From: Rhizoctonia solani
Lineage: Eukaryota; Basidiomycota; Agaricomycetes; Cantharellales; Ceratobasidiaceae
Assembly (NCBI RefSeq): GCF_016906535.1
Contig: NC_057370.1
Coordinates: 2,480,001-2,544,000 of the forward strand
Length of the DNA stretch: 64,000 bases
Reading direction: 5' to 3'
Part shown: piece after piece, positions 15,565 to 35,489 of the stretch
Layout: each line of letters starts with the position of its first letter
Position numbering within the stretch: the first letter of the stretch is position 1
Position numbers and translations under genes: made by a program
Notes under the pieces: model-generated
The model's database searches: none
Told to the model about the DNA's origin: nothing
What the model saw: the letters and a program-made list of their open reading frames with translations, nothing else

Positions 15565-16065
15565 ACTAATGAGCGCGTACGGTGGGCTAGAGAATGTTGC
15601 TTCATAACCAGATTCTGACCCTTATTTATAAAGCACTTACTGCATGATAGGTCGGTGCGCATATAACGAATGTGATACCCATACGTCTATCATCCACATG
15701 TTTAGCAGCGCCCGCGATGTCAGTGGCAAACCAAGGCTGAGAATTCATATGATGCCCCTGTAATCTAGAATCACTTTAGTGTCCAAAAGTTCAGCCCGAG
15801 TTAACCCAAGGCTGAACTTGACGTACACGCAATAGTGCCTATTAAATTATCCGCTCTATTTACAAACACGCTCGTGGCGATGTCTTGAGGTTGTGGAATG
15901 ATTTCACGGAGCATCTATATGGTCCGGAACGTAAGGTGGTACTACATGTGCGCGATCTATACCGCTTTGTTAGACTCGCAACCAGTCGCACTTCAGACTG
16001 CGGTATCTGAGGGCAAAAGGGTTATGTAAGATATGATGAGATAAGCTAATATATGAGAGGAGGTG
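15565..16065. other. Intergenic with one unresolved coding-like stretch
   Basis: On the minus strand around 15920-15640 two open segments could be exons: MLREIIPQPQDIATSVFVNR and then NSQPWFATDIAGAAKHVDDR, the latter ending at a GTAAGT donor near 15640. The phases between them do not join cleanly and I do not recognise the family. It could be a gene remnant. Confidence 0.25.
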
Positions 16066-16084
16066 CAGTCTTATGTAGCGACTG
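16066..16084. repeat. Left-end hairpin of the RecQ-DUF6589 element
   Basis: CAGTC and GACTG form a 5-bp stem around a 9-base loop, directly abutting the left inverted repeat. Confidence 0.55.
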
Positions 16085-16135
16085 GGACAACAGTCTAGGT
16101 GTTCCGACGATCCCTGACATATGTAAGCAGAGATG
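16082..16135 (+). repeat. Left terminal inverted repeat
   Basis: This 54-nt arm pairs with the reverse complement of 35032-35085 with seven mismatches. Positions 16112-16135 match perfectly (24 nt). Confidence 0.88.
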
Positions 16136-16337
16136 ATCGGAAGAACCTCGGTAAAATATAACGTAAGCCTCTCAGCCTAGGCAAGAGTCACACCGCCTAG
16201 GTATGGCGTGAGAGTGGACAAGGTTGTGATCAAAGGACGCTTACTAAGAGTGAGATTGTGACATAGGTACATTCGATGTGCATGGAAGTCTTAAAATACA
16301 TGATTTCAACATTAATGTACGACACTTGAAATCTGAG

Positions 16338-17052
16338 CTAGCCAAACCGCATTTTGCGAACCTGGCTCTGAGATAGATCCTGGAGATTAGCTCTCTTCTG
16401 CAATGGAACAACAGGGGTCATATGCGCGGGTAGCATTGGCGTAGTCAAGACTTGCCATTGAGAGCGAGGTGACGCTGGACCAATAATGAGTTCAGAATAG
16501 GTTGTGCCCCCGCTATTTGGCCTCTGGGGGGCTTTGTTGTCCACTTGAGAGTCCCTTGTTGGATCATTCACAGCCGGTCTTGGCACTGGTGCTTGCTTCA
16601 GAAGATCAAGTAATTCTCCTCCGTAGTGACCCCAATACCCCCAACTGCCCTTGAGAAGTCTTGCCAGATTTGTACCCAGGGCGATATCTGGCCGGTTTGC
16701 AATCAAGTGTATGGTTTGGTCATCAAGAAGTGCGTTCGGAGCCCATTGTACGTGTGAGTGATCTCTCTTGGGTTGAGTTGCCCCTTTTTTGCTTGTACTA
16801 CCCGACGCCTTGTTTTGGGAGGTGGTACACGCACTTTGTCAAGAACCGAGGGATTGCAAACGTCGCAACAGGGAACGCCTGAGGAGAGAAGAACTTTTGC
16901 GTCTTAAAATCAGTTATCACTGAATAAAGTAAGCTGAATTTGAGAAATCTTACCAGGAGTAGGGTTATTGAACACGCGGGTAAGGATAGCGCGACGACAA
17001 GAGGTTGTTTGGATAAACGCATAAATCCCTCCACCTGGTGAGTCTTCCCGTA
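16338..17052 (-). pseudogene. RecQ-family helicase, 3' part (split by chromovirus copy 1)
   Basis: Continuation of the helicase gene whose 5' part lies at 23450-24933. After removal of the chromovirus and one copy of the duplicated CCGTA, codons read straight across the junction from ...GEIEIR to EDSPGGGIYAFIQTTSCRRA. This is the zinc-region-like part of RecQ C-termini, with CRRAILTRVF. After one intron it continues GVPCCDVCNPSVLDKVRVPP, and the tail runs WAPNALLDDQTIHLIANRPD to the stop at 16338-16340. Near 16785-16790 the frame needs one extra A in an A-run (A6 where A7 restores VVQAKKGATQPKRD). The gene fragment lies about 200 bp inside the left terminal inverted repeat. Confidence 0.82.
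17048..17052. repeat. Target-site duplication CCGTA, left copy
   Basis: The same five bases occur at 23450-23454 directly after the right LTR of copy 1. Confidence 0.93.
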
Positions 17053-17623
17053 TGTCCTAGACGTCTATAAGGACGTCGAGGGTGCGGGCGCTTGTGGCCG
17101 TGTGACTAATACAATGAACCGCTTAAGGCGGCGGCGAGGTACCCTACGACGACGAGAACTATCTACGACAACACATGCTGTAAGGCGGCGGCGAGCTACG
17201 TATGTACAGCGAGAACGACGCTTAAGGCGTGTAACTAAGTAACTTACTGGGCTGTAAGGCCCTCGTACAGTGTTGAATGCGACAAGAGGTAATTGACCTG
17301 GGTGTTACCATGGTCGGTTGTCCTCCTTATATATTCTACAGGGTGACTAATTACAAATACATCATATCAAATATCTAATCCAATAAGAACCCCGCTCCGC
17401 AGTCGGCCTTACTCATGCATACGTGTCACTGACGTGTCATAGTGATGTCATCAGGTGGAGGTGGCTACGTATGCTGAGGTAAGCGCGGAAGGGGACGTGG
17501 CTTGGCGCTCAGCGTATGATATATAAGCGCCGAGGTCACGTGATCAAAAATGTTGTCCGTTTGCCTTCGTTTAAATTCGAGAAAATGGGAATAAATTCCC
17601 TGGTATCGAGTGTGTCTACGACA
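17053..17623 (-). repeat. Copy 1 3' LTR (left)
   Basis: A 571-bp LTR beginning TGTCC and ending GACA. It contains the TATATAA motif and TAAGGC-containing hairpins shared with the other LTRs. Confidence 0.93.
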
Positions 17624-20600
17624 CTGCCCCCCCTCTAAGGGCCTTGGCAGCGCCGAGGGCCTTCTTTCTCATTTCTTTTTTGTATTCTTTCAAAATTTTT
17701 TTTGCATTTTTGAGGTTTTCTCGGGGCTCCCACGTGTTTTCCTCTGGTCCGTAGCCCTTCCATTGACTCTGAAGAACCAATTTCCGTTCCTTTCTTCCAT
17801 GTCTGTTATCCCTTCTACTTTGTATCCTCTTCCCCGTCCACGGTGACTGGAGGGGGGCGATTTTCAAAGGTGCGCTTTTTGTCCCTCTTCACCTTAGATA
17901 AGAGTCCCACATAGAAGACATTATGGATCCGCATGGTTGGGGGGAGTTCCAAGCGGTAAGCTCTGTCGGAGATTTTCTCGGTTATTTTGAAGGGGCCTAG
18001 GCGTTGTTCAGTTAGCTTTGGACTAAGGGTCTTCAGCTTCACATTTTTGGCGTCCAGCCAGGCTTCTTCCCCAATTTTGAATTCAAGTGGTTCTCCTGCT
18101 TCTCCGGCTACCATGCGTGTCTTTGATTGCCGGAGTGCTGCCTCTATTTCCCGCCATTGTTCTTCCATCTGGGTTGCCAAATTGTCTGCCTCGGGGACAT
18201 CTGTTGGGACATTACTTGGAGTCAAGGAAGGTTCCCAGCCATAAAGTGCCTTGAAGGGAGATTTGCCTGTCGAGCTGTGTACTGCGTTGTTGTAGGCGAA
18301 TTCCGCCATTGGTAGCCACTTGACCCAGTCTTTCTGGTTTACCCCTGAGTATGCCCGTAAAAGTGTTCCACCGTGGGGTTCACACGTTCTGTTTGCCCGT
18401 CGCTTTGAGGATGGTAGGCCGAAGAGAAGTGGGGGTCTATCCCCAGGCGTTGGTACAGCGCCTTTAGGAACTTGTTATTAAAAACCCGTCCACGGTCTGA
18501 TATTGTCTTCTCAGGCATGCCATATCATTTCCACACATGGCGTAGGAATAGGTCTGCTAACTCCGGGGCCTTGAGCTTCTTAGAACATTCTACCAGGATT
18601 ACGTACTTAGTGAAGCTATCCACGATGACCAGGATAGAGTCACTATTTCCGTCTCTGGGCAGGTCCACTATCATGTCATACAACACATGTTGCCACGGGC
18701 GTGATGGGAGTTCTAACGGCTGAGGTGGGATGGATCCGTACTTGGGCTTTCTGATGCGTTGGCATGTTTCACAAGAATCAACATGCCAGTATGTGTCAGC
18801 CCGGATGCCAGGCCAGTAGTAGTTCCTAGATACCAGTTCTAGAGTCCGTTGCCTGCCCGGGTGACCAGCTAGAGGGCTGTCGTGGAATATGCGAAGCAAG
18901 TCCGTTCTCAATGTTCCAACGTCTGGTACCACAATTCTCCCTTGGTAAAATAGTAGGCTGGCTTCCATTTTGTAGTCCCTGAATGCCCGTTTGATAGAAG
19001 GCGGGGCCTTTGACTCATTTTGAAGGAATTGTAGAATTTCCTCCAGGGATTCGTCCTGGTCTAGGGACATTTCAATTTGCCGTTGTAGTTCCTTTTCAGG
19101 TGTGACTAGGGCAAGGTTGGCGAAAACGGGGTCTGGCAACATGGTCTGATCGGCGGGAGGAGTATCCGCATGGTCGGAGCGGCGGGATAGGGCGTCTGGT
19201 TTGCCGGATTGCTTACCCGGCCGGTACACAATTTGGAAGTTGTACCCGGCAAGTAGTAGGTGCCAACGCGCGTGACGACGGTTGAAGGTGCGGGATTCCT
19301 TCCAGTACTCTAGGTTACGGTGATCGGTAAACACGGTGATAGGGTGGAGGGTTCCTTCCAAGAAGATGCGCCAATATTCAAAGGAGCGGATGATGCTAGA
19401 AGCTCCTTATCATGTGTATCGTAATTCTGCTCAGCGCCTTTGAAGGATTCCGACAGAAAGCCTAGTGGATGAAGACGGCCATCTTCCTGACGTTGACTCA
19501 GTATGGAACCCAGGGCTGCACCGGAGGCATCTGTTTCCAGGAAGTAGGGTTTGGATGGATTGGCGTGGCAAAGGACTGGTGCGTTTGTGATGGCGTCCTT
19601 AAGCCCCTGGAAGGCTTCCTGTTCCTTGGTCTCCCATTTCCAGACTGTATCCTTCTTGACAAGATTGTGCAGTGGTCTGGCCATGTGGCTAAAGTTGGCA
19701 ACAAATCAACGGAGGAAGTTGGCAAAGCCTAGGAACGACTGGACTTCCTTAACCTTAGTAGGTACCGGCCATTCTTGCACCGCTTGGATCTTGAGCTTAT
19801 CCAAGCTAAAACCTTTATCAGAGACAATGATCCCAAGGTATTCCACAGAGGTGACGTGAAAGGTACATTTGGATGCCTTGCAGAATAGCTGGTTCTCCAT
19901 TAACCGCTTCAGGACCTCATGAACGTGTTGCGTGTGTGATGCGTCATCCGTGGAGTAAATAAGGATATCATCAAGGTAAATGATGACGCATACATCAAGC
20001 AAGTCTTTGAATAACTCGTTCATGAAGTGCTGGAAGGCCGCGGGTGCGTTTGTCAAGCCAAAGGTCATGACCAGGGACTCGTATAAGCCATATTTGGTAC
20101 GGAAGGCAGTTTTCCATTCGTCGCCTTCTTTTACCCGGACATTGTTGTACCCCCATCTTAGGTCTAGCTTAGTAAAGATCTTGGCGCCGCGGAGCTGGGC
20201 CATGAGATCATCTGGGCGAGGCAACGGATAGACGTTCTTTTTTGTCCGGTTATTGAGGCGGCGGTAGTCAACAACCAATCGGCGGGAGCCATCCTTTTTT
20301 GGAACAAACATAACAGGGGAGCTAATTGAGGATTTGCTAGGACGGATCTTTCCCGCTTTCAACTCGTCCCTGAGCCAATCCCTGAGAGTGGCGGATTCGG
20401 CGTCCGTCATGCTGTACAGGGGAGAGTTCAGGGGACCCTCTTCTGTGAGCTCGATCCCTATATCGTAGTGCCTATGAGGGGGAAGCTTGTTGAATTCCTC
20501 CTCTCCAAATACCTTGGCGTATCTATGGTATTCGGAGGTACTCCTTCAAGTGGGTTCTTGTCTGCTTCCTCCTCCTCGGCAATGGCCACATGTTCTGGCG

Positions 20601-21041
20601 GAGTGTGTGGGAAGGAGAGGGTGCGCGTATTCCAGTCTATTTCTGGGTTGTGGGCGTCTAACCATTTCAAACCTAGGATGGCCGCGTGACTGCCGGTGTT
20701 GCAGATGAGGAAGGTTTCCGTCATCTTTTTGCCATCATAGGTGAAGGTAAGTACTGCTTTCTTCCAGATTTTTCCTGCCTGGGGGCTCGACCCATCAAGC
20801 ATAGTAACGGTACGGGGTGAGGGGAGGTCAATGAGTGGGAGGCGGAGTGATTCCGCGGTACGGGGGTGTAAAAATGACAATGTAGCGCCTGAATCTATCA
20901 GGACTTCTATTGTTTCCGCTTTTTTCTCTGGCTGTATTGGAATTGTGAAGAGTGGTGCGATTCTATTGGTAGACGATATATTACAAAATTCCAGACATAA
21001 ACCAGAGTCCTTGGGGTCCCTGCGCGCGGCATCAGGTACCC
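17616..21041 (-). pseudogene. Copy 1 pol remnant (protease, RT, RNase H, integrase, chromodomain)
   Basis: Broken into at least six open pieces. Visible parts are a retropepsin-like stretch (protease region near 20880), RT with YLDDILIYS near 19960, RNase H FLETDASGAALG near 19540, and integrase HHCC plus core (LYDMIVDLP, which keeps the first catalytic Asp). The C-terminal chromodomain reads WKGYGPEENTWEPRENLKNA near 17750. Most breaks are single-base losses relative to copy 2. It cannot make a full polyprotein. Confidence 0.9.
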
Positions 21042-22393
21042 TTACTCTTTTCCCGCTTGGTACTTGGAGTCTTCGCCAATCTTGGCGGCTTCCTTAGTCT
21101 TTCCCTTGTCCTCAATAGGGGTAGCTTTCCAACCCGTGCGGCATTCCGCAAACTTGTGGCCCATTTTGCCACACTTGATGCAGGCGCCAGCGGCGCGGCG
21201 GCGATTTCGTTCTTCTTCCGACACAAAGTTAGGGTCGTCGGAGAGCTTCTTTGAACCGGTGCTGAACTGGCTGGTACTCGTCCCCCTTGCGGGGTTGGAC
21301 TGTTTGCTAGGCTTACTATCCTTCGGCGGATGGCTAGCACGCTCTTCACGAAGAGCGTTATCGATAACGAGTGCTGCATTCTGCAGCTCGAGGAGGGTTC
21401 GGGGGCAATGCTTGCGGGTTGCGATTTGACGGCTGACCTCCCAGTGGAGGCCTCGGGCAAACTGGCCTCAAAGGGCCGCGTCGTTCCAGTCCAGTTCCAT
21501 TGCTAAGGTCCTGAACTTTGTGATGTAGTCCGCACAGGTGCCGGACTGGGTGAGGGTGGTGATTTTCCGCTCGCGGCCCTTGTGGCATCAGGGTTGCCAA
21601 ACGCTGCCAGAAACTCTGATTTGAACCCTTTGACCGTCTGGATGATTGCCCGGTGTGACCCAAGCTGGTCAAGGTGAGGGTGGGCCCATGCTCCCGCGGA
21701 ATCCTTCATGTTCATCAGAAGGAAGGATAGGACTTCTTGGTCCGTGGGAAACATGCGTGAGTTTAGCCGGGTCCAGGCCAGCATCCTTGTAAGCCACTGC
21801 TTGGCTTTGCTCCCGATCTTGCCTGTATAGGCGTCTGGGTGGTCTACTTTGACCGGGGCGGGATAGGTGGCGGCTGGAGCCGGAGGTGGAGGGGCAGGTA
21901 CTCCAATGGGGGATCGGAGACGCGGAGATGGAAGGGGAGAAGGGACTCGCGGGGGTATGGCCCTCTGGGGGGCTGGCTGGGCAAAACTGGGAAGCCCTTT
22001 TGGTTGCTCGGGCCAGAAGGAGGGCCCACTAACCGATCCAATAGGCTTGGTCTTGTGTAGGGGGCGTGGCGTTGCTTCCACGACCGGGGGCTTGGCTTCT
22101 TCTGGGGTCCTTGGCCCATGGGATTGGAGGCTTCGAAGCCCATCCTTGACAACATCGACGGTTTGGGAAATATTTTCGACGTTGGTTTGGGTCTTGATCC
22201 CCGTTTCCTTGACTTCTTCGAGCTTTTGCTCGAGGTTCTCGACTTGGCTGAGGAGGCCAAGGAGGAGGCGGGTAACCCGCTCAAGGGAGACTTCCCCAAG
22301 TTCGATAGGGGTGGCTGACGGAAGTTGGGGTCCCAGGTCTCTCGGATCAAAAGGGGACTGGGCTCGAGAGGATGTCCGGGAACGGGTTGCCAT
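21042..22393 (-). pseudogene. Copy 1 gag remnant
   Basis: Homologous to the copy 2 gag from MATRSR at 22393. It is open to about 21560, where one base is lost (DATRAAS for DATRAAE), then continues in other frames to the zinc knuckle CIKCGKMGHKFAEC and the stop at 21042-21044. The slippery heptamer upstream of the stop is conserved at 21048-21054. Confidence 0.88.
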
Positions 22394-22877
22394 CGTAGGA
22401 GCGGGGTAGGAGCGGCCAGCGTGAGATGATGCCCGCGAGGACAAGCGAGTAGGAGTGCGGGATGTAATGGTGGAAATGGGGGGGACTAGTAGATGCCTGT
22501 GTCAGGACTTATGAGCGCTTTATTACTCGATCGCTAAGACCTTGCGTCAAACAACCTAGCGTTGAACAGTAGGAATTACTAATCACAGCCGTGGGCGGGC
22601 ATGATGTAGAATCCAATCTCTGCAAGCGGGTGTATTGGCTGTCTAGGTCCGCTGGTAAAAGGTGCGGCGACCGGGGTATGCGGGCGATAGGGAATTCTTG
22701 CCTTATAGCAATTTGGTACTAGGAGGGGACGACGCTGGTTTGATTATTAACAGCAAAAGGCAATCCCGATCTCCGGTATTTCCCTCGTGCTAGTACAAGG
22801 TTCCTTCTCGTTGTTGGGCTAAGTGTGGTGGGTGCGGGTAGGCACGGTTTGCAACCAACTTAAGGTTGATTACCTAG

Positions 22878-23449
22878 TCCTAGACGTCTATAAGGACGTC
22901 GAGGGTGCGGGCGCTTGTGGCCGTGTGACTAATACAATGAACCGCTTAAGGCGGCGGCGAGGTACCCTACGACGACGAGCTAACTATCTACGACAACCAC
23001 ATGCTGTAAGGCGGCGGCGAGCTACGTATGTACAGCAAGAACGACGCTTAAGGCGTGTAACTAAGTAACTTACTGGGCTGTAAGGCCCTCGTACAGTGTT
23101 GAATGCGACAAGAGGTAATTGACCTGGGTGTTACCATGGTCGGTTGTCCTCCTTATATATTCTACAGGGTGACTAATTACAAATACATCATATCAAATAT
23201 CTAATCCAATAAGAACCCCGCTCCGCAGTCGGCCTTACTCATGCATACGTGTCACTGACGTGTCATAGTGATGTCATCAGGTGGAGGTGGCTACGTATGC
23301 TGAGGTAAGCGCGGAAGGGGACGTGGCTTGGCGCTCAGCGTATGATATATAAGCGCCGAGGTCACGTGATCAAAAATGTTGTCCGTTTGCCTTCGTTTAA
23401 ATTCGAGAAAATGGGAATAAATTCCCTGGTATTGAGTGTGTCTACGACA
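22878..23449 (-). repeat. Copy 1 5' LTR (right)
   Basis: A 572-bp LTR, the partner of 17053-17623. It is followed by the target duplication CCGTA at 23450-23454. It lacks the two terminal bases TG at its left end. Confidence 0.93.
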
Positions 23450-24933
23450 CCGTATTTCTATCTCTCCGCTTGCTGTATCTGACATTTTCTTCTTAGTTCC
23501 ACACGCTGGTTGGCCGCTACGTCTTCGGCTTTTAAGTTGCATGTTTGGTGCGGATACATTAGCACTTGCAGGCTTGGTTGGGTCAACCTTGTATGCGTTA
23601 GGCTCTGCAAGGAGCACAGCAATACCTGTGCAAGATTTGCTCCGTTCAACACGTCCAGCACGCTGCTGGAAGCTCTCAATGCTATTAGGAGATTTCCACT
23701 GAACAACTTGTCCAATATTGGAGATGTTACATCCCTTGATATTTTACTAGTCAATGCGTGTAAAACATATAGCTTATGTGATTGTCACTCACCATTCCTG
23801 CCGCATCAGTGCAAACCAGAACTTGAACCAGTCCACGCCGAAAGAGTTCCATTACAAGTTGTTGGTACGGGGTGGAAAACGACGCGTTGTATGGCCAAAT
23901 GAGACCGGATGACTGGAGCGCAGTGGGTAAGCATTCATTAGTGAGGTAATCAACTATTCCAGTTCCATCTTCAATGCTATCAGCATAAATGAATGTCTTG
24001 AGAATATCGCTACGCTCTTTGACGTGAGGCGGGACCACAAAGCCAAGGTCTCGATAAGTTTCAAGTGGGTGAACACACTTTTGGGAGATGAGTGTGACAT
24101 TTCCCCGATCGTTGCCTTTGTTGATGAACTTGTGGTCCAATCGAAACTCCAGTTGTTTGATTAGGTCGCGATACACACGGGGTGTCAGTGTTGCTGAGAG
24201 AGCAATGAAGGGAATACCCTGGGGTAAAAAGGCGCGAAGGATTGAGAGTGAACCATAAAGCTTTTGGAAATCTGCACCCAACAGTGATATAACATGAGCT
24301 TTGTCAATGACAACGCTGAGCAAAGATTGAGTGAATTCTTGCGTGCTGAGGACATCTTTGATAAATCGTGGCGACAAGAGTGACTCGGGCAATATTAATA
24401 TAACCCTATATTTCCCAGAAATCACATCCTAAGCAAGGTTAGAGCACATTGAATAATACAAGAATGAATACTCACTTGTATAAGGTCCTTGTTAGAGGTA
24501 GTAACCTGACTGTTGATTGCGACAGCAGAGATTCCAAACTCTGCTGGAAAGGTAACTGCCTATGTAAGTCATTTTAGCTATTACTCATGGTCGAGATTGT
24601 TGATGTGCATCTTACCATCTCGTCTTGCAAGGCAAGTAATGGAATTATATAAATGATGATAAGCTGTGAGCATTGATCAAGGACAAACGGGCCAGCGGCA
24701 ACTGCCGTTTTACCCATGGATGTAGCAACATGTATAATTGCATCTTGCCCTCAAAGTTGAGCTCAAATGCCATCGAGTTGGAATGGGCGCGCCGCTTTCC
24801 ATCGGAATTTTGCGCAGAGCTGTTCCTCAACCGAGTTGATTTCCTCATCAGTGAAACAAATAGAATATGGTTTTGCACAATGAGGAATAAGTCTTTGTCG
24901 ATTGTTAATATTTCTGTTAGATGCGGCTGACAT
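23450..24933 (-). pseudogene. RecQ-family ATP-dependent DNA helicase, 5' part
   Basis: Superfamily 2 helicase. The likely start is the ATG at 24933 (MSAASNRNINNRQRLIPHCA). Motifs in order: an upstream aromatic/Q region (AKFRWKAARPFQLDGI), Walker A ATSMGKT, motif Ia/Ib region IIPLLALQDEM, Walker B as DKAH instead of DEAH (VVIDKAHVISLLGADF), motif III ALSATLTPRVYRDL, motif V (CTDAAGM then NISNIGQVVQWKSP), and motif VI QRAGRVER. Two in-frame TGA codons lie just before Walker A (GGC ATT TGA and CAA CTT TGA). Both fit CGA-to-TGA at CpG, and the DKAH change fits GAC GAA to GAC AAA, also at CpG. Introns of 50-60 nt are spliced in phase. With the chromovirus insertion downstream, the gene is inactive. 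It is divergent from the DUF6589 gene. Confidence 0.87.
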
Positions 24934-25118
24934 TGTGAACCAAGGCGGTTTCAAGTGTAGCGATTGGCAGACAGAGGCCCAAGTCCAAGTCACCTGATAC
25001 GAAATAAAAAAATTTTCATAATTGACTCTAAGACCACTCTTGCCTGACACCACTATCTACGCACTCATACCTATGCATATAGTCTGTTCTGCATGACAAA
25101 CACAATGTTTCGCGCATC

Positions 25119-25123
25119 AGGAC
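25119..25123. repeat. Target-site duplication AGGAC, left copy
   Basis: Repeated at 31548-31552 directly after the right LTR of copy 2. Confidence 0.95.
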
Positions 25124-25694
25124 TGTCCTAGACGTCCTTAAGGGGCGTCGAGGTAGCGGGCGCTTGAGGCCGTATAGAACTAAGTAAAACCGTGTAAGGC
25201 GGCGAGGGGTCTACCTACGACGACGAGCTAACTAACTAAGGCGACAAGACGCTGTAAGGCGTCGACGAGCTACCTAAGTACAGTGAGGGCGACGCTTAAG
25301 GCGTGTATCTAAGTGGTTACCGGCTGTAAGGCCTCGTACAATGTGTGTAGTGCAACAAGAGGTAATCAACCTGGGTGTTACCATGGTCGGTTGGCCTCCT
25401 TATATATTCTACAGACAAGCTATTTACAATTACATTATATCAAATACCGTATCAAATAAGAACCCCGCTCCGCAGTCGGTCTTACTCATGCATACGTGTC
25501 ACTGACGTGTCATAATGATGTCATCAGGTGGAGGTGGCTACGTGTGCTGAGATAAGCGCGGATGGGGACGTGGCTCGGCGCTTAGCGTATGATATAAGCG
25601 CCGATGTCACGTGATTGAAAATGTCGTCCGTTTGTCTTCGTTTAAAATCGAGAAAATGGGAATAAATTCCCTGGTATCAACTGTGTCTACGACA
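25124..25694 (-). repeat. Copy 2 3' LTR (left)
   Basis: A 571-bp LTR. Its edge supplies the pol stop codon (25687-25689), so the pol frame overlaps the LTR by 8 nt. Confidence 0.95.
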
Positions 25695-28600
25695 CTGCCC
25701 CCCCCTTAAGGGCCTTGGCAGCGCCGAGGGCCTTCTTTCTCATGTCTTCCTCGTATTTTTTCAAAATTTTCCCCGCATTTTTTAGGTTCTCTCGGGGTTC
25801 CCATGTGTTCTCCTTGGGGCCATAGCCCTTCCATTTGACCCGGAAGAACCATTTTCCGTTGCGTTCCTCCGCATCTGTTATTCCTTCAACCTCATATTCT
25901 TCTTCCCCATCCACAGTGACTGGTGGTGGACGGTTCTTGAAGGCCCGTTTGTTGTCCCTTCTGACCTTAGACAATAACCCTACGTAAAATACGTTATGGA
26001 TGCGCATGGTTGGTGGGAGTTCTAGCCTGTAAGCGCGGTCGGAGATTTTTTCCATGACTTTGAATGGTCCTAAGCGTTGTTCCGTTAGCTTGGGGCTTAA
26101 GGTTTTGAGTTTAACGTTCTTCGCATCAAGCCATACTTCTTCTCCGACCTCAAACTCTGTTGGGCTTCCGTGTTCTCCGGCTACCATTCGTTGTTTAGAC
26201 TGCCGGAGGGCGGATTCAACTTCTCTCCATTGTGCTTCCATGGCTTCCGCTAGTTCATCGGCCTCTGGCACGTCCGTAGGAATGTTGGAAGGGGTTAAGG
26301 TTGGTTCCCATCCGTGGAGCGCTTTGAAAGGTGACTTCCCTGTGGCACTATGCACTGCGTTATTGTAGGCGAATTCTGCCATTGGTAACCATTTGACCCA
26401 GTCCCTTTGATTAGTACCGGAGTATGCTCTTAGGAAGTGTTCTACGGAGGGGTTCACCCGTTCTGTCTGCCCATCGCTCTGGGGGTGGTAAGCGGAGGAG
26501 AAGTGCGGGTCTATGCCTAGTCGTTGGTACAACGCTTTCAAAAACTTGTTATTGAACACTCTTCCGCAGTCTGAGATTGTCTTCTCCAGCATTCCGTACT
26601 TTTTCCAGACGTGTCGTAAGAACAGTTCCGCCAGTTCGGGGGCTTTTAGTTTCTTGGAACATTCTACCAATATGACGTACTTGGTAAAGCTATCCACAAT
26701 AACTAGTATGGAGTCGTAGGCCCCGTCCTTTGGTAGATCAACAATCATATTGTAGGAAATGTGTTGCCATGGGCGTACTGGGAGTTCTAGCGGCTGTGGT
26801 GGGATTGACGCGTATTTGGGTTTCCTAATCCTTTGGCAGGTTTTGCAGGAGTCTACGTGCCAGTATGTGTCCGCGCGTATGCCTGGCCAATAGTAATTGC
26901 GTGAGATTAGCTCCAGGGTCCGTTGCCTGCCTGGGTGCCCTGCCAATGGGCTGTCGTGGAAGATTTGGAGTAAATCCGTACGTAGGGTCCCAACGTCAGG
27001 GACCACAATCCGCCCTTGGTAGAAGAGTAACCCTGCTTCCATTTGATAGTCCTTGAATGCTTGTTTGATGGATGGAGGTGCTTTGGATTCATTCTGCAGG
27101 AACTGTAGGATTTCTTCAAGGGACTCGTCTTGATCCAGACTTGACTCTATACGCTGTTGTAACTCCTTTTCTGGTAGGACTAGTGCGACGTTGGCAAAGA
27201 TAGGGTCTGGGAGCATGGTCTGGGCGGCAGGTGGGACATTGGCGTGGTCTGATCGCCGGGATAAGGCATCTGGTTTGCCGGACTGTTTGCCCGGGCGATA
27301 CACAATTTGGAAGTTGTATCCGGCCAGGAGGAGGTGCCAGCGTGCATGGCGGCAATTGAAGGTTCTAGACTCCTTCCAGTATTCCAAGTTCCAATGGTCA
27401 GTGAAGACGGTTACGGGGTGCAGGGTCCCTTCCAAGAAGATGCGCCAATATTCAAACGACCGGATGATAGCCAGGAGTTCCTTGTCGTGGGTGTCATAAT
27501 TTTGTTCGGCACCCTTGAAGGACTCAGATAGGAACCCTAGTGGGTGTAAACGGCCGTCTTCCTGTCGTTGGCTAAGAATGGAACCTAAGGCTGCACCAGA
27601 AGCATCCGTTTCTAGGAAGTAGGGCTTGGTGGGGTCGGCGTGACAAAGTACAGGGGCGTTGGTAATGGCATCTTTTAGTCCTTGGAATGCTTCCTGTTCC
27701 TTTGTGTCCCATCTCCAAGGTGTATCCTTCTTGACTAGGTTGTGTAATGGCCTAGCCATGTGGCTGAAGTTGGCGACAAATCGGCGAAGGAAATTAGCAA
27801 ACCCTAGGAATGATTGGACTTCCTTGACTTTAGTGGGTATCGGCCATTCCTGTACCGCCTGGATTTTGAGCTTATCCAGACTAAATCCTTTATTGGAGAC
27901 AATGATTCCCAGGTATTCCACAGAGGTAACGTGGAATGTACACTTGGATGCCTTGCAGAACAGTTGATTATCCATTAACCGTTTTAGGACCTCATGAACG
28001 TGTTGTGTGTGTGATGCGTCGTCCTTTGAGTAGATCAGGATGTCATCGAGGTAAATGATGACGCATACATCTAATAGGTCTTTAAACAACTCGTTCATAA
28101 AGTGTTGAAAGGCAGCGGGAGCATTGGTGAGGCCAAATGTCATGACTAAGGATTCGTACAAGCCATACTTGGTGCGGAACGCAGTTTTCCATTCATCGCC
28201 CTCCTTAACTCGGACATTGTTGTACCCCCATCTTAGGTCTAGCTTGGTGAAGATTTTGGCGCCACGGAGTTGGGCCATAAGATCATCTGGACAGGGTAGC
28301 GGGTATACATTTTTCTTTGTCCGGTTGTTGAGGCGGCGGTAGTCAACAACCAAGCGACGGGAACCATCCTTTTTGGGGACAAACATTACGGGGGAACTGA
28401 TGGAAGATTTGCTTGGGCGGATCTTTCCTGCTTTCAACTCATCCCTGAGCCAGCCCTTGAGTGTGGCGGACTCAGCGTCTGTCATACTATAAAGGGGAGA
28501 ATTGAGGGGTCCTTCTTTGGTGAGTTCAATGCCGATATCATAGTGCCTGTGGGGGGGAAGCTTATTGAATTCTTCTTCTCCGAATACCTTGGCGTATTGA

Positions 28601-29130
28601 TGGTACTCGGAGGGTACTCCTTCAAGGGGGTTCTTGTCAGCTTCCTCCTCTTCGGCAATGGCCACGTGTTCTGGTGGGGCATGAGGAAAGGAGAGGGTAC
28701 GTTGGTTCCAATCAATTTCTGGGTTGTGGGCGTCTAGCCACTTCAATCCCAAGATGGCGGCGTGAGACCCTGTATTGCAGATAAGGAAGGTCTCAGTCAT
28801 TTTCTTGCCATCAAAGGAGAAGGTTAGGTTGGCCTTCTTCCAGATTTTGCCTGCCTGGGGGCTCGACCCATCGAGCATAGTAACGGTACAGGGATGAGGG
28901 AGATCTATTAGGGGAAGACGTAAAGTCTCGGCGGTGCGTGGGTGGAGGAATGAGGATGTGGCGCCTGAATCAATCAGGACTTCTAATGTTTCTGCTCCTT
29001 TCTCTGGTTGAATTGGGATTGTAAAAAGTGGGGCATTTCTATTGATACTGTTCAATATATTACAGAATTCAAAACAACCAGAGTCCTTGGGGTCCTTGCG
29101 CGCGGCAGCAGGTACCCTTAGTCTTTTCCC
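25687..29130 (-). CDS. pol: Copy 2 pol: protease-RT-RNase H-integrase-chromodomain
   Basis: Open from the frameshift site at 29130-29124 to the TAG at 25687-25689, with no in-frame stop. Numbering from 29055, there are 1,122 residues. Aspartic protease: LIDSGATSSF near residue 28. Reverse transcriptase: YLDDILIYS near 335. RNase H: FLETDASGAALG near 480. Integrase zinc finger: HPGRQRTLELISRNYYWPGI with the CKTC pair. The integrase core follows, and a chromodomain near 1050-1105 has WFFRVKWKGYGPKENTWEP. Several conserved residues differ from copy 1 by CpG transitions. The first integrase Asp is Asn (YNMIVDLP; copy 1 YDMIVDLP), and SDRG is SDCG. RT has PLPCPDD for PLPRPDD, and RNase H-proximal HRN is HWN. 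The polyprotein is therefore full length but probably not competent for integration. Confidence 0.95.
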   Translation of the reverse strand, partial: GKRLRVPAAARKDPKDSGCFEFCNILNSINRNAPLFTIPIQPEKGAETLEVLIDSGATSSFLHPRTAETLRLPLIDLPHPCTVTMLDGSSPQAGKIWKKANLTFSFDGKKMTETFLICNTGSHAAILGLKWLDAHNPEIDWNQRTLSFPHAPPEHVAIAEEEEADKNPLEGVPSEYHQYAKVFGEEEFNKLPPHRHYDIGIELTKEGPLNSPLYSMTDAESATLKGWLRDELKAGKIRPSKSSISSPVMFVPKKDGSRRLVVDYRRLNNRTKKNVYPLPCPDDLMAQLRGAKIFTKLDLRWGYNNVRVKEGDEWKTAFRTKYGLYESLVMTFGLTNAPAAFQHFMNELFKDLLDVCVIIYLDDILIYSKDDASHTQHVHEVLKRLMDNQLFCKASKCTFHVTSVEYLGIIVSNKGFSLDKLKIQAVQEWPIPTKVKEVQSFLGFANFLRRFVANFSHMARPLHNLVKKDTPWRWDTKEQEAFQGLKDAITNAPVLCHADPTKPYFLETDASGAALGSILSQRQEDGRLHPLGFLSESFKGAEQNYDTHDKELLAIIRSFEYWRIFLEGTLHPVTVFTDHWNLEYWKESRTFNCRHARWHLLLAGYNFQIVYRPGKQSGKPDALSRRSDHANVPPAAQTMLPDPIFANVALVLPEKELQQRIESSLDQDESLEEILQFLQNESKAPPSIKQAFKDYQMEAGLLFYQGRIVVPDVGTLRTDLLQIFHDSPLAGHPGRQRTLELISRNYYWPGIRADTYWHVDSCKTCQRIRKPKYASIPPQPLELPVRPWQHISYNMIVDLPKDGAYDSILVIVDSFTKYVILVECSKKLKAPELAELFLRHVWKKYGMLEKTISDCGRVFNNKFLKALYQRLGIDPHFSSAYHPQSDGQTERVNPSVEHFLRAYSGTNQRDWVKWLPMAEFAYNNAVHSATGKSPFKALHGWEPTLTPSNIPTDVPEADELAEAMEAQWREVESALRQSKQRMVAGEHGSPTEFEVGEEVWLDAKNVKLKTLSPKLTEQRLGPFKVMEKISDRAYRLELPPTMRIHNVFYVGLLSKVRRDNKRAFKNRPPPVTVDGEEEYEVEGITDAEERNGKWFFRVKWKGYGPKENTWEPRENLKNAGKILKKYEEDMRKKALGAAKALKGGAVS
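25695..25709 (-). other. Copy 2 polypurine tract
   Basis: In element sense the bases before the 3' LTR are TTAAGGGGGGGGCAG, then TGTCG. This is a purine-rich tract at the plus-strand priming position. It lies inside the last pol codons (Lys-Gly-Gly-Ala-Val-Ser-stop). Confidence 0.85.
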
Positions 29131-30470
29131 GATTCGGGTCCAGACTCTTTGCCAATTTTGGCGGTTTCCTTGGCCTTCCCCTTGTCCTCAATAGGGGTAG
29201 CCTTCCAGCCTGTGCGGCATTCCGCGAACTTGTGACCCATCTTACCGCACTTGATACAGGCGCCTGCAGCGCAACGGCGGTTGCGTTCCTCTTCCGACAC
29301 AAAGTTAGGGTCATCGGAGAGTTTCTTCGAACCGGTAGTTGTTTGACCGGTACTCGTCCCCCTTGCGGGGTTAGATGGTTTGCTAGACTTATTGTCCCTC
29401 GGTGGGTGGCTAGCGCGCTCTTTGCGGAGAGCATTGTCGATGACGAGTGCTGCATTTTGCAGCTCGAGAAGGGTGCGGGGCCGGTGCTCGCGGGTTGCGA
29501 TTTGGCGGCTGACTTCCCAGTGAAGGCCGCAGGCAAACTGGCCTTGGAGGGCCGCGTTGTTCCAGTCCAGTTCCATGGCTAAGGTTCTGAACTTCGTGAT
29601 GTAATCCGCGCATGTGCCGGATTGAGTAAGCGTTGTAATTTTCCGCTCAGCGGCCCTTGTGGCGTCAGGGTCGCCAAATGCTGCCAAGAACTCCGTTTTG
29701 AATCCTTCAACCGTTTGAATGATGGCCCGATGTGAGCCAAGTTGGTCAAGGTGAGGGTGGGCCCAGGCCCCAGCGGTATCCTTCATGTTCATCAAGAGGA
29801 AGGATAGTACCTCTTGGTCGGTGGGGAACATCCGTGAATTGAGGCGGGTCCAGGCCAACATCCGGGTCAGCCACTGCTTTGCTTCGCTCCCTATTTTGCC
29901 TGTGTAGGCGTCGGGGTGGTCAACCTTGACCGGAGCGGGATAGGTGGCGACTGGAGCCGGAAGAGGAGGGGCAGCTGTCCCGATCGGGGATTGGAGACGC
30001 GGAGATGGAGGGGGAGATGGGACTCGCGGGGGCACTGCTTGGACAGGAGTGGGTTGGGCAAAGGAGGGGAGCCCTCTAGATGGTTCGGGCCAGAACGAGA
30101 CCCGACTAGTCAATCCAACAGGGTTGACTTTTGGTAAGGGGCGTGGCGTTGCTTCCACGGCCGGGGGTTTTGTGTCCTCTGGGGTCCGGGGCCCGTGGAG
30201 TTGGAGGCTTCTAAGCCCATCCTTGACAGTATCGACGGCTTGAGAGATGTTCTCAAGGTTGGTACAGGCCTCAACCCCTGCTTCTTGGACTTCTTCCACT
30301 TTCCGCTTGAGGTGCTCAACTTGGCCGAGGAGGCCAAGGAGGAGGCTTGTAATTCGCTTGAGGGAGACTTCCCCGATTTTGACATAGGGGGTTGCCGGAA
30401 GTTGGGGTCCCAGCTCCCCTTGATCGATTGGGGAGCGGGTTCGAGAGGCTGGCCGGGAACGGGTTGCCAT
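29118..30470 (-). CDS. gag: Copy 2 gag (capsid/nucleocapsid)
   Basis: 450 residues from the ATG at 30470 (MATRSRPASRTRSPIDQGEL) to TAA at 29118-29120. The N-terminal third has a predicted coiled coil, followed by a proline-rich linker. A Ty3/Gypsy capsid core comes next (KQWLTRMLAWTRLNSRMFPT, YITKFRTLAMELDWNN), and a CCHC zinc knuckle (CIKCGKMGHKFAEC) lies about 35 residues from the end. This is the structural protein that packages element RNA. Confidence 0.95.
   Translation of the reverse strand: MATRSRPASRTRSPIDQGELGPQLPATPYVKIGEVSLKRITSLLLGLLGQVEHLKRKVEEVQEAGVEACTNLENISQAVDTVKDGLRSLQLHGPRTPEDTKPPAVEATPRPLPKVNPVGLTSRVSFWPEPSRGLPSFAQPTPVQAVPPRVPSPPPSPRLQSPIGTAAPPLPAPVATYPAPVKVDHPDAYTGKIGSEAKQWLTRMLAWTRLNSRMFPTDQEVLSFLLMNMKDTAGAWAHPHLDQLGSHRAIIQTVEGFKTEFLAAFGDPDATRAAERKITTLTQSGTCADYITKFRTLAMELDWNNAALQGQFACGLHWEVSRQIATREHRPRTLLELQNAALVIDNALRKERASHPPRDNKSSKPSNPARGTSTGQTTTGSKKLSDDPNFVSEEERNRRCAAGACIKCGKMGHKFAECRTGWKATPIEDKGKAKETAKIGKESGPESGKD
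29124..29130 (-). other. Predicted -1 ribosomal frameshift site G GGA AAA
   Basis: In gag frame the codons GGA AAA GAC TAA end the gene, preceded by G. The heptamer fits X XXY YYZ. Slipping back one base gives GGG AAA AGA CTA, which continues without a stop into the frame that codes protease and RT. Copy 1 keeps the same heptamer and the same 3-base spacer to its gag stop. Confidence 0.8.
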
Positions 30471-30962
30471 GGTATGTGTTGGCGGGTAGGAGCGGCCAGC
30501 GTGGGAAGAAGCACGGGAGGAGGAGCGAGTGGGAGTGCGCGAGGTAATGGTGGGCGAGTAAGGGGGAGTGAGGGCTGTGTAGCCAGGTAGTGCCTATATC
30601 AGGACTTATGAGCGCTTTGTTACGCGAACGCTAAACCTCTGCGTCAAACAACCTAGCGTTGGACAGTAAGTGCCGCTAATTACAGCCGTGGGCGGGCGTA
30701 ATGTAGGGTCTCGTCTCTGCAAGCGGGTGTATCTGCTGTCTGAGGTCGCTGGTAACAGGTGCGGCAACCGTGGGTATGCGGACGATTAGAACCCGTCTGC
30801 CTTATAGCAATTCGGTACTAGGTGGAGCCAACGCTGGTTTGATTATTGACAGCAAAAGGCGAGCTCGATCACCTGTTTTCCCTCGTGCTAGTACAGGGGG
30901 TCTTCTCGTTTGTTGTGGCTAAGTGGGTGTGCTTTGGTGGGCACGGTTTGCAACCGACTTAA

Positions 30963-30974
30963 GGTTGATTACCT
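30963..30974 (-). other. Copy 2 primer-binding site, candidate self-priming type
   Basis: In element sense, two bases after the 5' LTR, the sequence is AGGTAATCAACC. It does not begin with the TGG expected for a tRNA 3' end. It is the exact complement of GGTTGATTACCT at 31224-31213 inside the LTR. Confidence 0.65.
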
Positions 30975-31212
30975 AGTGTCCTAGACGTCCTTAAGGGGCG
31001 TCGAGGTAGCGGGCGCTTGAGGCCGTATAGAACTAAGTAAAACCGTGTAAGGCGGCGAGGGGTCTACCTACGACGACGAGCTAACTAACTAAGGCGACAA
31101 GACGCTGTAAGGCGTCGACGAGCTACCTAAGTACAGTGAGGGCGACGCTTAAGGCGTGTATCTAAGTGGTTACCGGCTGTAAGGCCTCGTACAATGTGTG
31201 TAGTGCAACAAG

Positions 31213-31224
31213 AGGTAATCAACC
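31213..31224 (-). other. Inferred start of copy 2 RNA and self-primer segment
   Basis: GGTTGATTACCT in element sense, beginning about 35 nt after the first base of a TATATAA box. It is complementary to the primer-binding site at 30963-30974. Confidence 0.5.
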
Positions 31225-31252
31225 TGGGTGTTACCATGGTCGGTTGGCCTCC

Positions 31253-31259
31253 TTATATA
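31253..31259 (-). promoter_or_regulatory. Copy 2 LTR TATA box
   Basis: TATATAA in element sense, conserved in all four LTRs of the window. Confidence 0.65.
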
Positions 31260-31615
31260 TTCTACAGACAAGCTATTTACAATTACATTATATCAAATAC
31301 CGTATCAAATAAGAACCCCGCTCCGCAGTCGGTCTTACTCATGCATACGTGTCACTGACGTGTCATAATGATGTCATCAGGTGGAGGTGGCTACGTGTGC
31401 TGAGATAAGCGCGGATGGGGACGTGGCTCGGCGCTTAGCGTATGATATAAGCGCCGATGTCACGTGATTGAAAATGTCGTCCGTTTGTCTTCGTTTAAAA
31501 TCGAGAAAATGGGAATAAATTCCCTGGTATCAACTGTGTCTACAACAAGGACCAACAGAATTGGACAGGACAAATTTAGTACGTTATATAATGTTTGTGT
31601 CCACAACCCTGGCGC

Positions 31616-34600
31616 TGACCTTCCAAGAATGGAATTGATCTACAATGCGAGCCATCCGCGCTCCCGCCGCAGGCTTTAGTTCATCCAACACTCGGCACTG
31701 TCAATCCCGTAACTCCCTTGAGAAACAAAGCTATATTACCACAATCTAGTTCATGCAAAAGAGGACAAGAAAGGCGGGCGGCAACTTTCAAGAGAAAGGC
31801 CGAAGAAAGGCAAGCGGCCGCGCAAAGAGAAATGGAGCAAGCCGAAGAGCTCCAAAAGGCCAGGATGTCTTATGAAAACAAATTAGCAGCACAGAATCAA
31901 TTAGAGACATTAGAAGCCATAGTAAGGAACGTATCAATGAGTCTCAATCAACACAGTCTTGATTGGGGCGACTTACTGGTCTTTGCGTTTGACCCAGCGC
32001 ATAATCCCGGTCGCTTTCGTGCAGAGCAATTCTGGCATTGCCCAGAGAACTTTTCTAAACTTATGCGCCTTTGGACTAGCGATGGCGCAACTTGCTCTGG
32101 GCAACAACTTGTCAAGGACTTTGCAATTGACCTAGTCTCCCGGTTAATGAAGCGCGAGTCTCGGCGAGCTACCAAGGAAGGATTCTTGCGTCTAGCCCCG
32201 GGGGACCTTCCTATTCAGACAAATGAGTTTGGACTTCAGAACATTACAAAACAACTAAATCTACATTGCGCAACTACAATGTCAGTCCTAAAGGCCGTTT
32301 GCACATTGTCAAAGCAGAAGAAGACGCTTACTGAAATGGGAAAAAGCCGTAAAGAGAAGGTGCGCGCATACTTAATATTGTATTCGCTTTACTCAAAGAG
32401 GGTTTTAGGTTGTGTCTGTTGCAGCATTATCGCTCCTCCAGGAGTACAACCAACTAAACAACAAATTTCAATCGCTATCGAGCCTTTTCTTATATGCATC
32501 TGGAGTCTCGCGACAAGGCATCTCTGTGATCTCAAGCTACGGGAATTCAACTAGTTATTCCAAACTCATAGCTCGCCCAAACTTTGCTGCCAATGTTGAA
32601 AATACTCCAGGATGCGTGACTGCGGTCAAGCAACGTAAAGCTGGAACTCTGTTCAACCTCTCGCAAGCATGCCGACAGATGCTACGCGAAATTGCAGCAG
32701 AGCGCCCGATGGCAGTTGTATACAACAATATAAATATATACTTTAGGTCGGAACAAGTAGCTATTGGGAAAAAAGGTAAAGGTTGTCTCTTTGCTTGTAA
32801 TATTTCATTTGGTAAATGATACAATTCTCGCTAGACACGCTCGAAAGCGGCACATGCGCTACAGCATTTGAGCTCTTTAAAGCAAGCCCCGAAGATATGA
32901 AGGTGTTGGACCTTAATGCTAAATTTATCAACGCTCGTGGACTAACATTGGATGACATTCAACTGACGCACAAGGAATCAAGCCTTCACCTCAAATGTAT
33001 CGAGTATACAATACTTGATATTATTGTGACATACGGTGGCCACGAGTTTCAGCGCTACCGCTTGCTGTTGGATGAAATCCTACCCTTGTCAGAAATCAAA
33101 CGAGAAGTTCATCACGATCGTATATATCCTATGCCAACAATGGAACTCGACGAAGCCACGATCAAAGGAAATATCGAGATCTGCCAAACGCTATTTAAGG
33201 AACTAGGCTTGGACACTTCAACCCTTGAGTTCGCACAATTCGTTCGCATACTTGCTGGCGATCAACTTACAGTGTCACGGCTCCGTACGATCGCCAAAAA
33301 CCGAATAGGGCATGAATCCAGCTATGAGTCGTTTGAATGGCTCGTCCCCATAATCGGCTTATTCCACTTGAAGATGGCTCAGACGCAGGGAATTTTGGAG
33401 ACGCACCTTGGGCACTCAAACTCCAGCCGTAATCCAACGTCTCTTGCATTTCAAAACACAATACTCCATCAAAAGCCTATTCCTACACCAACGCCCTTTC
33501 ACACTGCTCGTGACTTGATTCAGGTATCGCTCTATGCTCGCATTCTGCATTGTTTTCAACTTGTCTCCGGAAACACAAGCTTGTCGGCCCTAGCGAACCA
33601 ACTCTCTTTGCTCGACTCTCAGGATTCTGAAGATCCTCCGACGTGCTCGTTTCGCCAGCTGAGACGGTACGCCCAAGACCTATACCAGGAGCATGCTAGT
33701 ACTCAAAAGGTTTACCATCTCCGGCAAGCTCGGAAGGCCGGAGGCGAGGGGTCTGATGCCGGCGACGCTATATTTGAGGACTCCAGTTTATTCATACGAG
33801 ATGCACTAGAACTTCAGGCATACACTGCGGCAATCAAGGCCGGAGACTCCGGAAGGGCTCTCATATCGCTGAAGCTATGGGCTCTTGCATTCCGTGCTAA
33901 TGGTCGATCCAAGTACGCGCAGGAGATGCTTTACTTGATTCATAATTTAACCCATGTATGGCCGCAACCACTTCGGTAAGTCAGTGCTCGGGTATTCTGC
34001 CTCCAAGGCCGACATTAATTACTTCAAGGGATATTATACTCAATAACTGGCTCCTCAATCCAACCGGGAACCCGAATTCACACGTTGAACTAGATCTAGT
34101 TCAAGAACATCTCATTTTTTGGATCAAGGTAAACATTACGATTTTGATTCAGCCTAATTAATTTAATTCAAGCTTCGAATATGCGACAGAATATGTACAA
34201 AGCACACGGAAGTGGTGCCTCATGGGAGTGGTTGGCCCACATCTCTCCGTGCGTCGACTTCCTTCGCCGACTCGCAAGAGAGTTCCAGCGAACCCTGGGT
34301 GATGATCAAGGCGCCAAGCACGCTCAGGCTGATCTATCCCGTTCAATAGATACATTAATACGCAGTTTTACCACCAATGAAATACACACCATCAAACCTG
34401 GACGGTCTAGAGCCGATGCCGATGGACCACCCATAGTTGACATGATAACCGAGGGGATGCGCCAACTCGTTCACGGCACTGACGGACCGATTGCAAAATT
34501 TAATCGAGAGCTCGAGCGGCTTCAGAAGCGCCGTAAGCTCATGCCAGTGTCAACGCAGTGGGAGCATTTTCAATCCACAATGGAAACCTCGGACACACAC

Positions 34601-34921
34601 GAGCACGAGAACATGAACGGCACTGAAGGCAAAAGCGAAGACGAGTGGGAGAGTATGCACGTTAGCAAAGCTCAGAGTGATAGCTCCGAGTTAGGGGTTG
34701 AAGATCAAGGCGAACACAGCGACTCCAAAACTGAAGCAGAGGAGTCGGAATCCGAAGAAGGCGAGGACGAGGAGTTTAGGCAAGAGGCGTTTAGTCTAGA
34801 ATTTGAACTTGGAAACGAAGTCTTCAATGCGTTTGGTGATCCAAGCGAATCTGAGGAAGAAGAGCCCGCTGCATGCGGCGAGCTTGATAGTGACAACGAC
34901 AGTCTCATTGATGAGCTGTAG
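31616..34921 (+). CDS. DUF6589-domain protein
   Basis: Large protein of a fungal family of unknown function. Exons cover about 31616-32360, 32409-32776, 32847-33974, 34042-34127 and 34175-34921, with in-phase GT-AG introns. For example, GKK joins to DTLESGTCATAFELF. The first part has a predicted coiled coil (KRKAEERQAAAQREMEQAEE). The DUF6589 core runs from HDRIYPMPTMELDEATIKGN through LAGDQLTVSRLRTIAKNRIG and WLVPIIGLFHLKMAQTQGIL to LALQNT-like SLAFQNTILHQKPIP and WLAHISPCVDFLRRLAREFQ. The tail is very acidic. The 5' end is uncertain: the frame is open from about 31616 without an ATG until 31832, so a first exon may have been displaced by the chromovirus insertion. The rest is unbroken. It is divergent from the RecQ gene inside the inverted-repeat element. 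Confidence 0.83.
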
Positions 34922-35031
34922 TGTTACATGATTCTTTATTGCCTAATACACATTATGTGACGATTGTGACTTCCACGCATCAGCTGATTCTAAGGTGCCT
35001 AGACCGGTAAAGCTATCCCGAGATAACCGTA
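34922..35031. other. DUF6589 3' flank inside the element
   Basis: About 110 bp between the DUF6589 stop and the right terminal inverted repeat. No other feature. Confidence 0.5.
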
Positions 35032-35085
35032 CATCTCTGCTTACATATGTCAGGGTTCGCCGGAACGCTTAGAGAGTTATCCCAG
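35032..35085 (-). repeat. Right terminal inverted repeat
   Basis: 54 nt, the inverted partner of 16082-16135. The perfect 24-nt block is 35032-35055. Confidence 0.88.
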
Positions 35086-35126
35086 CCCCTACGGTAACAC
35101 TGTCTTATAGTTTCCGTAGGGGCTGG
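35082..35126. repeat. Right-end hairpin: 13-bp perfect stem, 19-base loop
   Basis: CCAGCCCCTACGG at 35082-35094 and CCGTAGGGGCTGG at 35114-35126 are exact inverted copies. The inner arm overlaps the outer edge of the terminal inverted repeat. Confidence 0.9.
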
Positions 35127-35489
35127 TCACGAGCCTACCGCTTTGTCCATGATTTCTTTCCGAAAATTTGGGCCTGGCTAACTGGCATAGTCCCAGGGAT
35201 TGTTTCGTCGAAATTTAAGTTTACCCCTAAGATATACTACTCCATCGAATACTTTCAAAACAATATTTCGGGAATGAAACCTTATATGCACGTACATGTG
35301 ACGATCGGATCAATTGCAATCAAACCAGCAAGGGATAATCGGTTCCAGATTTGACCACGTGACACATTATTTTTCCTTCGCAGCCTCAAATTATTCTCAA
35401 TAGATTCACGAGTCGTAACAGCTTTTGGGTATCCTTTATTTCAAACATAAAATTAGGAGTATCGCTACCAACTTAAACAGGACTCTCCA
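35127..35489. promoter_or_regulatory. Upstream region of the PPR gene
   Basis: AT-rich, with CACGTG at about 35357, 130 bp before the ATG. No coding signal. Confidence 0.35.

Follow-up and report, generated by a model that had tools for sequence, protein, structure and literature searches.

The window analyzed here, 64,000 nucleotides of the Rhizoctonia solani contig NC_057370.1 (positions 2,480,001 to 2,544,000 of the forward strand), contains an element with two divergent genes, which encode a RecQ-type helicase and a DUF6589 protein. Judged by published descriptions of Academ, this element most likely represents a low-copy DNA transposon of the AcademH kind that moves by cut-and-paste, and it survives here as a full-length but decayed copy. 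AcademH, a group of the Academ superfamily, was reportedly defined by Kojima in 2020. An earlier note, which was made from the sequence alone, had proposed that the gene pair is part of a mobile element and that this element represents an undescribed class. The first proposal was verified by ends that are shared at seven loci and by 9-bp target-site duplications; the second is taken up below.

To find copies, each element end was used as a query against the 16 contigs (40.7 Mb) of the genome from which the window comes. Next to the window copy (C1), six further copies or fragments were recovered (C8, C9, C10, C12, C13 and C16). Alignment of the copies set the true ends of the element at window positions 15971 and 35137, with the sequence TAGACTCG...CGAGCCTA. 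The 54-bp inverted repeat that had been regarded as the terminus is thus subterminal, and the true ends are about 110 bp (left) and about 50 bp (right) further out; its positions and degree of identity were confirmed. The architecture of both ends is the same, i.e., from the outside inward a short terminal inverted repeat is followed by a hairpin and by the 54-bp subterminal repeat:

15962..15970, unstranded: 9-bp target-site duplication, left copy CCGCTTTGT, 9/9 identical to 35138-35146
15971..15985, plus strand: left terminal inverted repeat TAGACTCGCAACCAG, 12/15 matches to the right terminus, start placed according to C8 and the duplication
15982..16085, plus strand: left terminal hairpin, CCAGTCGC paired to GCGACTGG over a long loop (DNA folding, weak)
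16082..16135, plus strand: left subterminal 54-bp inverted repeat, 47/54 positions match
35032..35085, minus strand: right subterminal 54-bp inverted repeat, 47/54 matches to the left one with a run of 24 identical bases
35082..35126, minus strand: right terminal hairpin, stem of 13 bp plus 3 bp (DNA folding)
35123..35137, minus strand: right terminal inverted repeat, closing the element with ...GGTCACGAGCCTA; the six other loci end correspondingly at this position
35138..35146, unstranded: 9-bp target-site duplication, right copy, equal to the left copy

The terminal inverted repeats agree at 12 of 15 bases in C1 and at 9-11 of 15 in the other four copies with two ends, and the right end of C16 is CCCA, compared with CCTA elsewhere. 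A hairpin was found beside each repeat, as had been claimed. The right one is strong (z -6.0, 0 of 200 shuffles as stable), and the left one is weaker (z -1.9, 10 of 200 shuffles; for a narrower section, z -2.4 with 2 of 200). A repeat finder (seed 12) lengthened the 54-bp repeat to arms of 66 nt, which are 83% complementary and were the sole inverted pair of at least 25 nt reported across 21.5 kb. Just outside the element, at 15060-15141 and 15257-15338, two identical copies of an 82-bp sequence are present, the starts of which are 197 bp apart.

A perfect 9-bp duplication was detected in three of the five two-ended copies, namely C1 (CCGCTTTGT), C8 (GTTGAAGGC) and C13 (GGCACTTGC). C9 and C10 have the right end and lack the left end, and they were left out of this count. 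The duplication was missing in the two smallest copies, in which 5/9 (C12) and 3/9 (C16) positions match, which was taken as none. These two are mini-elements that consist of the element ends alone (C12, 149 bp, L034:4284-4432; C16, 173 bp, L027:4018-4190). C8 (2112 bp) carries an insertion resembling a long terminal repeat (LTR) and retains the 3' ends of both genes, C13 (620 bp) retains the RecQ 3' end, and C9 much of the DUF6589 gene; the helicase core is present at only one of the seven loci. C8, C13, C12 and C16 are thus internally deleted with both ends kept. At the deletion joints the adjoining alignment pieces overlap by 4 bases in C8 and by 7 bases in C13, and therefore these joints may have formed at microhomologies.

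The seven loci also bear on the view that two ordinary host genes were by chance enclosed by a dispersed repeat that has nothing to do with them. The annotation of the DUF6589 gene as an ordinary gene, RhiXN_04332, and the two mini-elements made of ends only would be in line with it, but C8, C9 and C13 keep gene parts beside the same ends, the duplications directly adjoin these ends, and the RecQ-DUF6589 pair recurs in other fungi. A chance arrangement is therefore very improbable.

C9 has decayed in a specific manner. Compared with C1, 119 transitions and 3 transversions were counted over 2135 bases (L025:5901-8035 versus window 33003-35137). Of the C-to-T type changes, 113 of 116 were at CpG, and 113 of 256 CpG cytosines were altered, which is the signature of methylation or of a process resembling repeat-induced point mutation.

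The window copy was later enlarged by two insertions, as the earlier note had stated. Both were confirmed to be LTR retrotransposons by their LTR pairs and by 5-bp duplications, which were read by eye in the flanks:

17053..23449, unstranded: LTR retrotransposon 1, within the RecQ gene, LTRs 99.1% identical, 5-bp duplication CCGTA
25124..31547, unstranded: LTR retrotransposon 2, between both genes, LTRs 99.8% identical, 5-bp duplication AGGAC

The two retrotransposons within this one DNA transposon are related to each other. Hand subtraction of both yielded a unit of about 6.2 kb from repeat to repeat, the same value as noted before, and of 6.3 kb from true end to true end.

The divergent order of the two genes was likewise confirmed, with RecQ on the minus strand and DUF6589 on the plus strand, and with stop codons that by eye lie about 200 bp and about 110 bp inside the repeats. 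The RecQ gene is severed by the first retrotransposon:

16338..17047, minus strand: RecQ-type helicase, 3' part, severed by LTR retrotransposon 1 (tblastn with P0162 and P0163, stop by eye)
23455..24933, minus strand: RecQ-type helicase, 5' part (sequence comparison with relatives)

The 3' part is highly similar to R. solani proteins (tblastn identity of 97.1% to the last exon of P0162 and 97.2% to P0163). The 5' part contains two in-frame stops, at 24765-24763 and 24753-24751, and its DEAH-box site reads DKAH (24305-24294). The Glu of this site is present in 118 of the 120 listed RecQ relatives, the other two having one Lys and one gap. P0162, from another R. solani record, is a close relative that is 95% identical to the window RecQ piece and free of both stops. 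In P0162 and P0166 the Pfam domains DEAD and Helicase_C were above the cut-off, and the best NCBIfam match of both was TIGR00614 recQ_fam, with 156.8 and 140.3 bits, respectively, which is under the curated cut-off of 219.8. ResIII and Cas3-like_C_2 rows of Pfam coincide with the helicase domains of the relatives, and the XPG family was not among the Pfam rows of 10 relatives at E <= 1 and of 6 relatives at E <= 0.01.

The second gene probably encodes the transposase. The earlier note had suggested DUF6589 as the transposase-like partner, and the predicted fold together with the linkage to RecQ in other Agaricomycetes argues for this enzymatic role. The following features were assigned:

31622..34921, plus strand: intron-containing DUF6589 gene, product predicted to be a DDE transposase (Pfam PF20231, P0106 match, fold of relatives)
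32724..32726, plus strand: first likely catalytic Asp (YDNIN), here Asn (codon by eye; Asp in 128/130 family letters)
33260..33262, plus strand: second likely catalytic Asp (GDQ), intact (conserved in 151/151 letters)
34105..34107, plus strand: third likely catalytic Glu (QEH), intact (134/136 letters; choice from structural-alignment ends)

The annotated gene RhiXN_04332 (P0106) spans window positions 31937-34918. Two exons of P0106 match the window at 100%, and the remainder at 90.5% with introns read through. The predicted fold of the DUF6589 relatives P0010 and P0048 is of the DDE-transposase type. For the full-length model, the top 22 listed structural matches were all transposases or RAG1, and a structure search revealed a resemblance of the DUF6589 model to Hermes. 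Nevertheless, DUF6589 differs from the transposases of Hermes (hAT) and of the P element, to which its identity in structural alignments was 4-12%; hAT and P elements generate 8-bp duplications and, to our knowledge, have no RecQ partner gene. Further searches were negative within their scope: the DUF6589 profile, run against PDB sequences, returned four rows without a transposase (best E 0.022), a BFVD fold search had no match at E <= 0.001, no relatives of P0001, the sole protein searched, were found in viral contigs, and 10 proteins from the DUF6589 search had no Pfam row for a KDZ or Plavaka transposase at E <= 1.

Two motifs had been put forward as sources of catalytic residues. The Asp of LAGDQLTVSRL is invariant and was taken as the second catalytic residue. 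MELDEATIKGN is a less likely source, although its Asp and Glu are conserved in 139/153 and 133/153 cases, since in the P0010 model both are located in a loop, while the YDNIN Asp is in the first strand. The Glu of KYAxE (153/154) was also considered as the catalytic Glu and set aside, because the ends of the structural alignments with Hermes, the P element and RAG1 favour the QEH Glu. This choice relies on residue numbers that we take to be those of Hermes, P element and RAG1, and on the assumption of no gaps near the alignment end. In C9 the GDQ Asp is replaced by Asn. The window copy itself looks dead: a retrotransposon interrupts its RecQ gene, which also contains two stops, and Asn replaces the first likely catalytic Asp of its DUF6589 protein.

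The linkage of the two genes was analyzed using the best 120 of 202 RecQ matches and the best 120 of 743 DUF6589 matches plus those of another search, so that at least 30 of the 120 are linked. Of the DUF6589 rows, 160 of 161 were used, and P0037, which has no contig, was left out. Matches were called to be on the same contig when the record length was equal and the organism, by eye, was the same; length by itself was insufficient, as one equal length (6886, P0160 of Pluteus) was a coincidence between species. Among the matches listed, RecQ and DUF6589 were on one contig in at least 30 contigs from 25 Agaricomycete species, and 6 of the 30 shared contigs were shorter than 60 kb. Two of these contigs hold tight pairs: one of 6886 bp in Ceratobasidium sp. 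423 (FRC11_005158 to 005160) and one of 12,044 bp in Ceratobasidium sp. 392 (FRC07_014320 to 014322). DUF6589 is found in Mortierella and Podila as well. Among the matches listed, almost every named DUF6589 row is entered as a hypothetical protein.

The protein distances of RecQ and DUF6589 correlate, with r 0.856 for 30 pairs and 0.911 over 15 pairs of Mycenaceae, a value that was reached by 0 of 2000 permutations. Five species carry two RecQ-DUF6589 pairs, and in Mycena alexandri and M. latifolia the nearest neighbours agree between the genes for two deeply different lineages. The agreement is not general: nearest neighbours differ between RecQ and DUF6589 in Hygrophoropsis and Plicaturopsis, and of the two pairs in Mycena sp. 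CBHHK59/15 a single one shows agreement, the distance being 0.09 for RecQ versus 0.36 for DUF6589. On balance, RecQ and DUF6589 appear to be co-inherited, a result that does not tell the role of RecQ.

Several features of the element agree with described transposons. According to an excerpt of PMC6416283, fungal Academ copies contain DEAD/DEAH and recQ_fam (CDD:129701) domains and are often annotated as host genes. Excerpts of PMC10045372 give duplications of 9 or 10 bp for AcademH and of 3 or 4 bp for AcademX, which has a nuclease in place of the helicase. AcademH is described as low-copy in Basidiomycota, Ascomycota and Mucoromycota in a part of PMC10799480, and a part of PMC8290104 reports putative nonautonomous Academ elements of Marasmius oreades. 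The assignment to the AcademH type is made because, as far as these excerpts go, the RecQ-family helicase beside the transposase, the 9-bp duplications, the low copy number and the occurrence in Basidiomycota all agree with the literature. A further likeness is the DDE-type transposase, predicted here from the fold and the conserved acids. The comparison with AcademH covers the helicase, the duplications, the copy number and the host range given in these excerpts. AcademX is the sister lineage of AcademH in the same superfamily, but its shorter duplications and its nuclease differ from the 9 bp and the helicase found here. Most likely, the element is therefore a new member of the described AcademH group, and the proposal of an undescribed class is probably wrong.

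It is unlikely that the element belongs to a superfamily distinct from Academ, in which DUF6589 would be a separate DDE lineage and RecQ would have been acquired independently. DUF6589 was not mentioned, and hence not named as a transposase, in the literature searched, the comparison with Academ was by description only, and RecQ partners are also found in Kolobok, i.e., in KolobokH and, on the complementary strand, in Kolobok-1_CCri (excerpts of PMC9587614). These points speak for a separate superfamily, whereas the RecQ-family helicase, the 9-bp duplication, the fungal range and the low copy number all agree with the partial descriptions of Academ and AcademH. KolobokH itself, the fungal lineage of Kolobok that also combines RecQ with a DDE transposase, has next to no chance of being the identity of the element. 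In the same excerpts its duplications are TTAA (4 bp) and RecQ is downstream of the transposase domain, whereas here RecQ is a separate, divergent gene and all three duplicated sites have 9-bp duplications without TTAA, on account of which KolobokH was rejected.

For the AcademH-type element, the following mechanism can be proposed. As a DDE transposase with a fold of the Hermes and P-element type, the DUF6589 protein would bind the terminal and subterminal inverted repeats, cut, and insert the element with 9-bp staggered joins. The RecQ-type helicase would be its conserved partner, which most likely unwinds the hairpin-bearing ends or serves the repair of the excision gap. The repair of the P-element excision gap depends on the host BLM helicase, and therefore a role in end unwinding or in synthesis-dependent gap repair is proposed for RecQ. 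The short copies with both ends may be products of interrupted gap repair. In a less probable version, an Agaricomycete DDE lineage distinct from Academ would use its own RecQ to process hairpin ends or to drive gap repair, and would thus bring along a BLM of its own; we give it a small chance.

Taken together, the new link is that of DUF6589, as the likely transposase, with an AcademH-type element. Mushroom genomes often contain this domain of unknown function (743 matches), and most of its entries there are given as hypothetical host proteins. Defence of the genome in the host fungus is hinted at by the CpG-type decay of C9. If DUF6589 is a DDE transposase, such genes could be masked as transposons, the domain would provide a searchable protein marker for AcademH-type elements, and the role of the element-borne RecQ would become testable.
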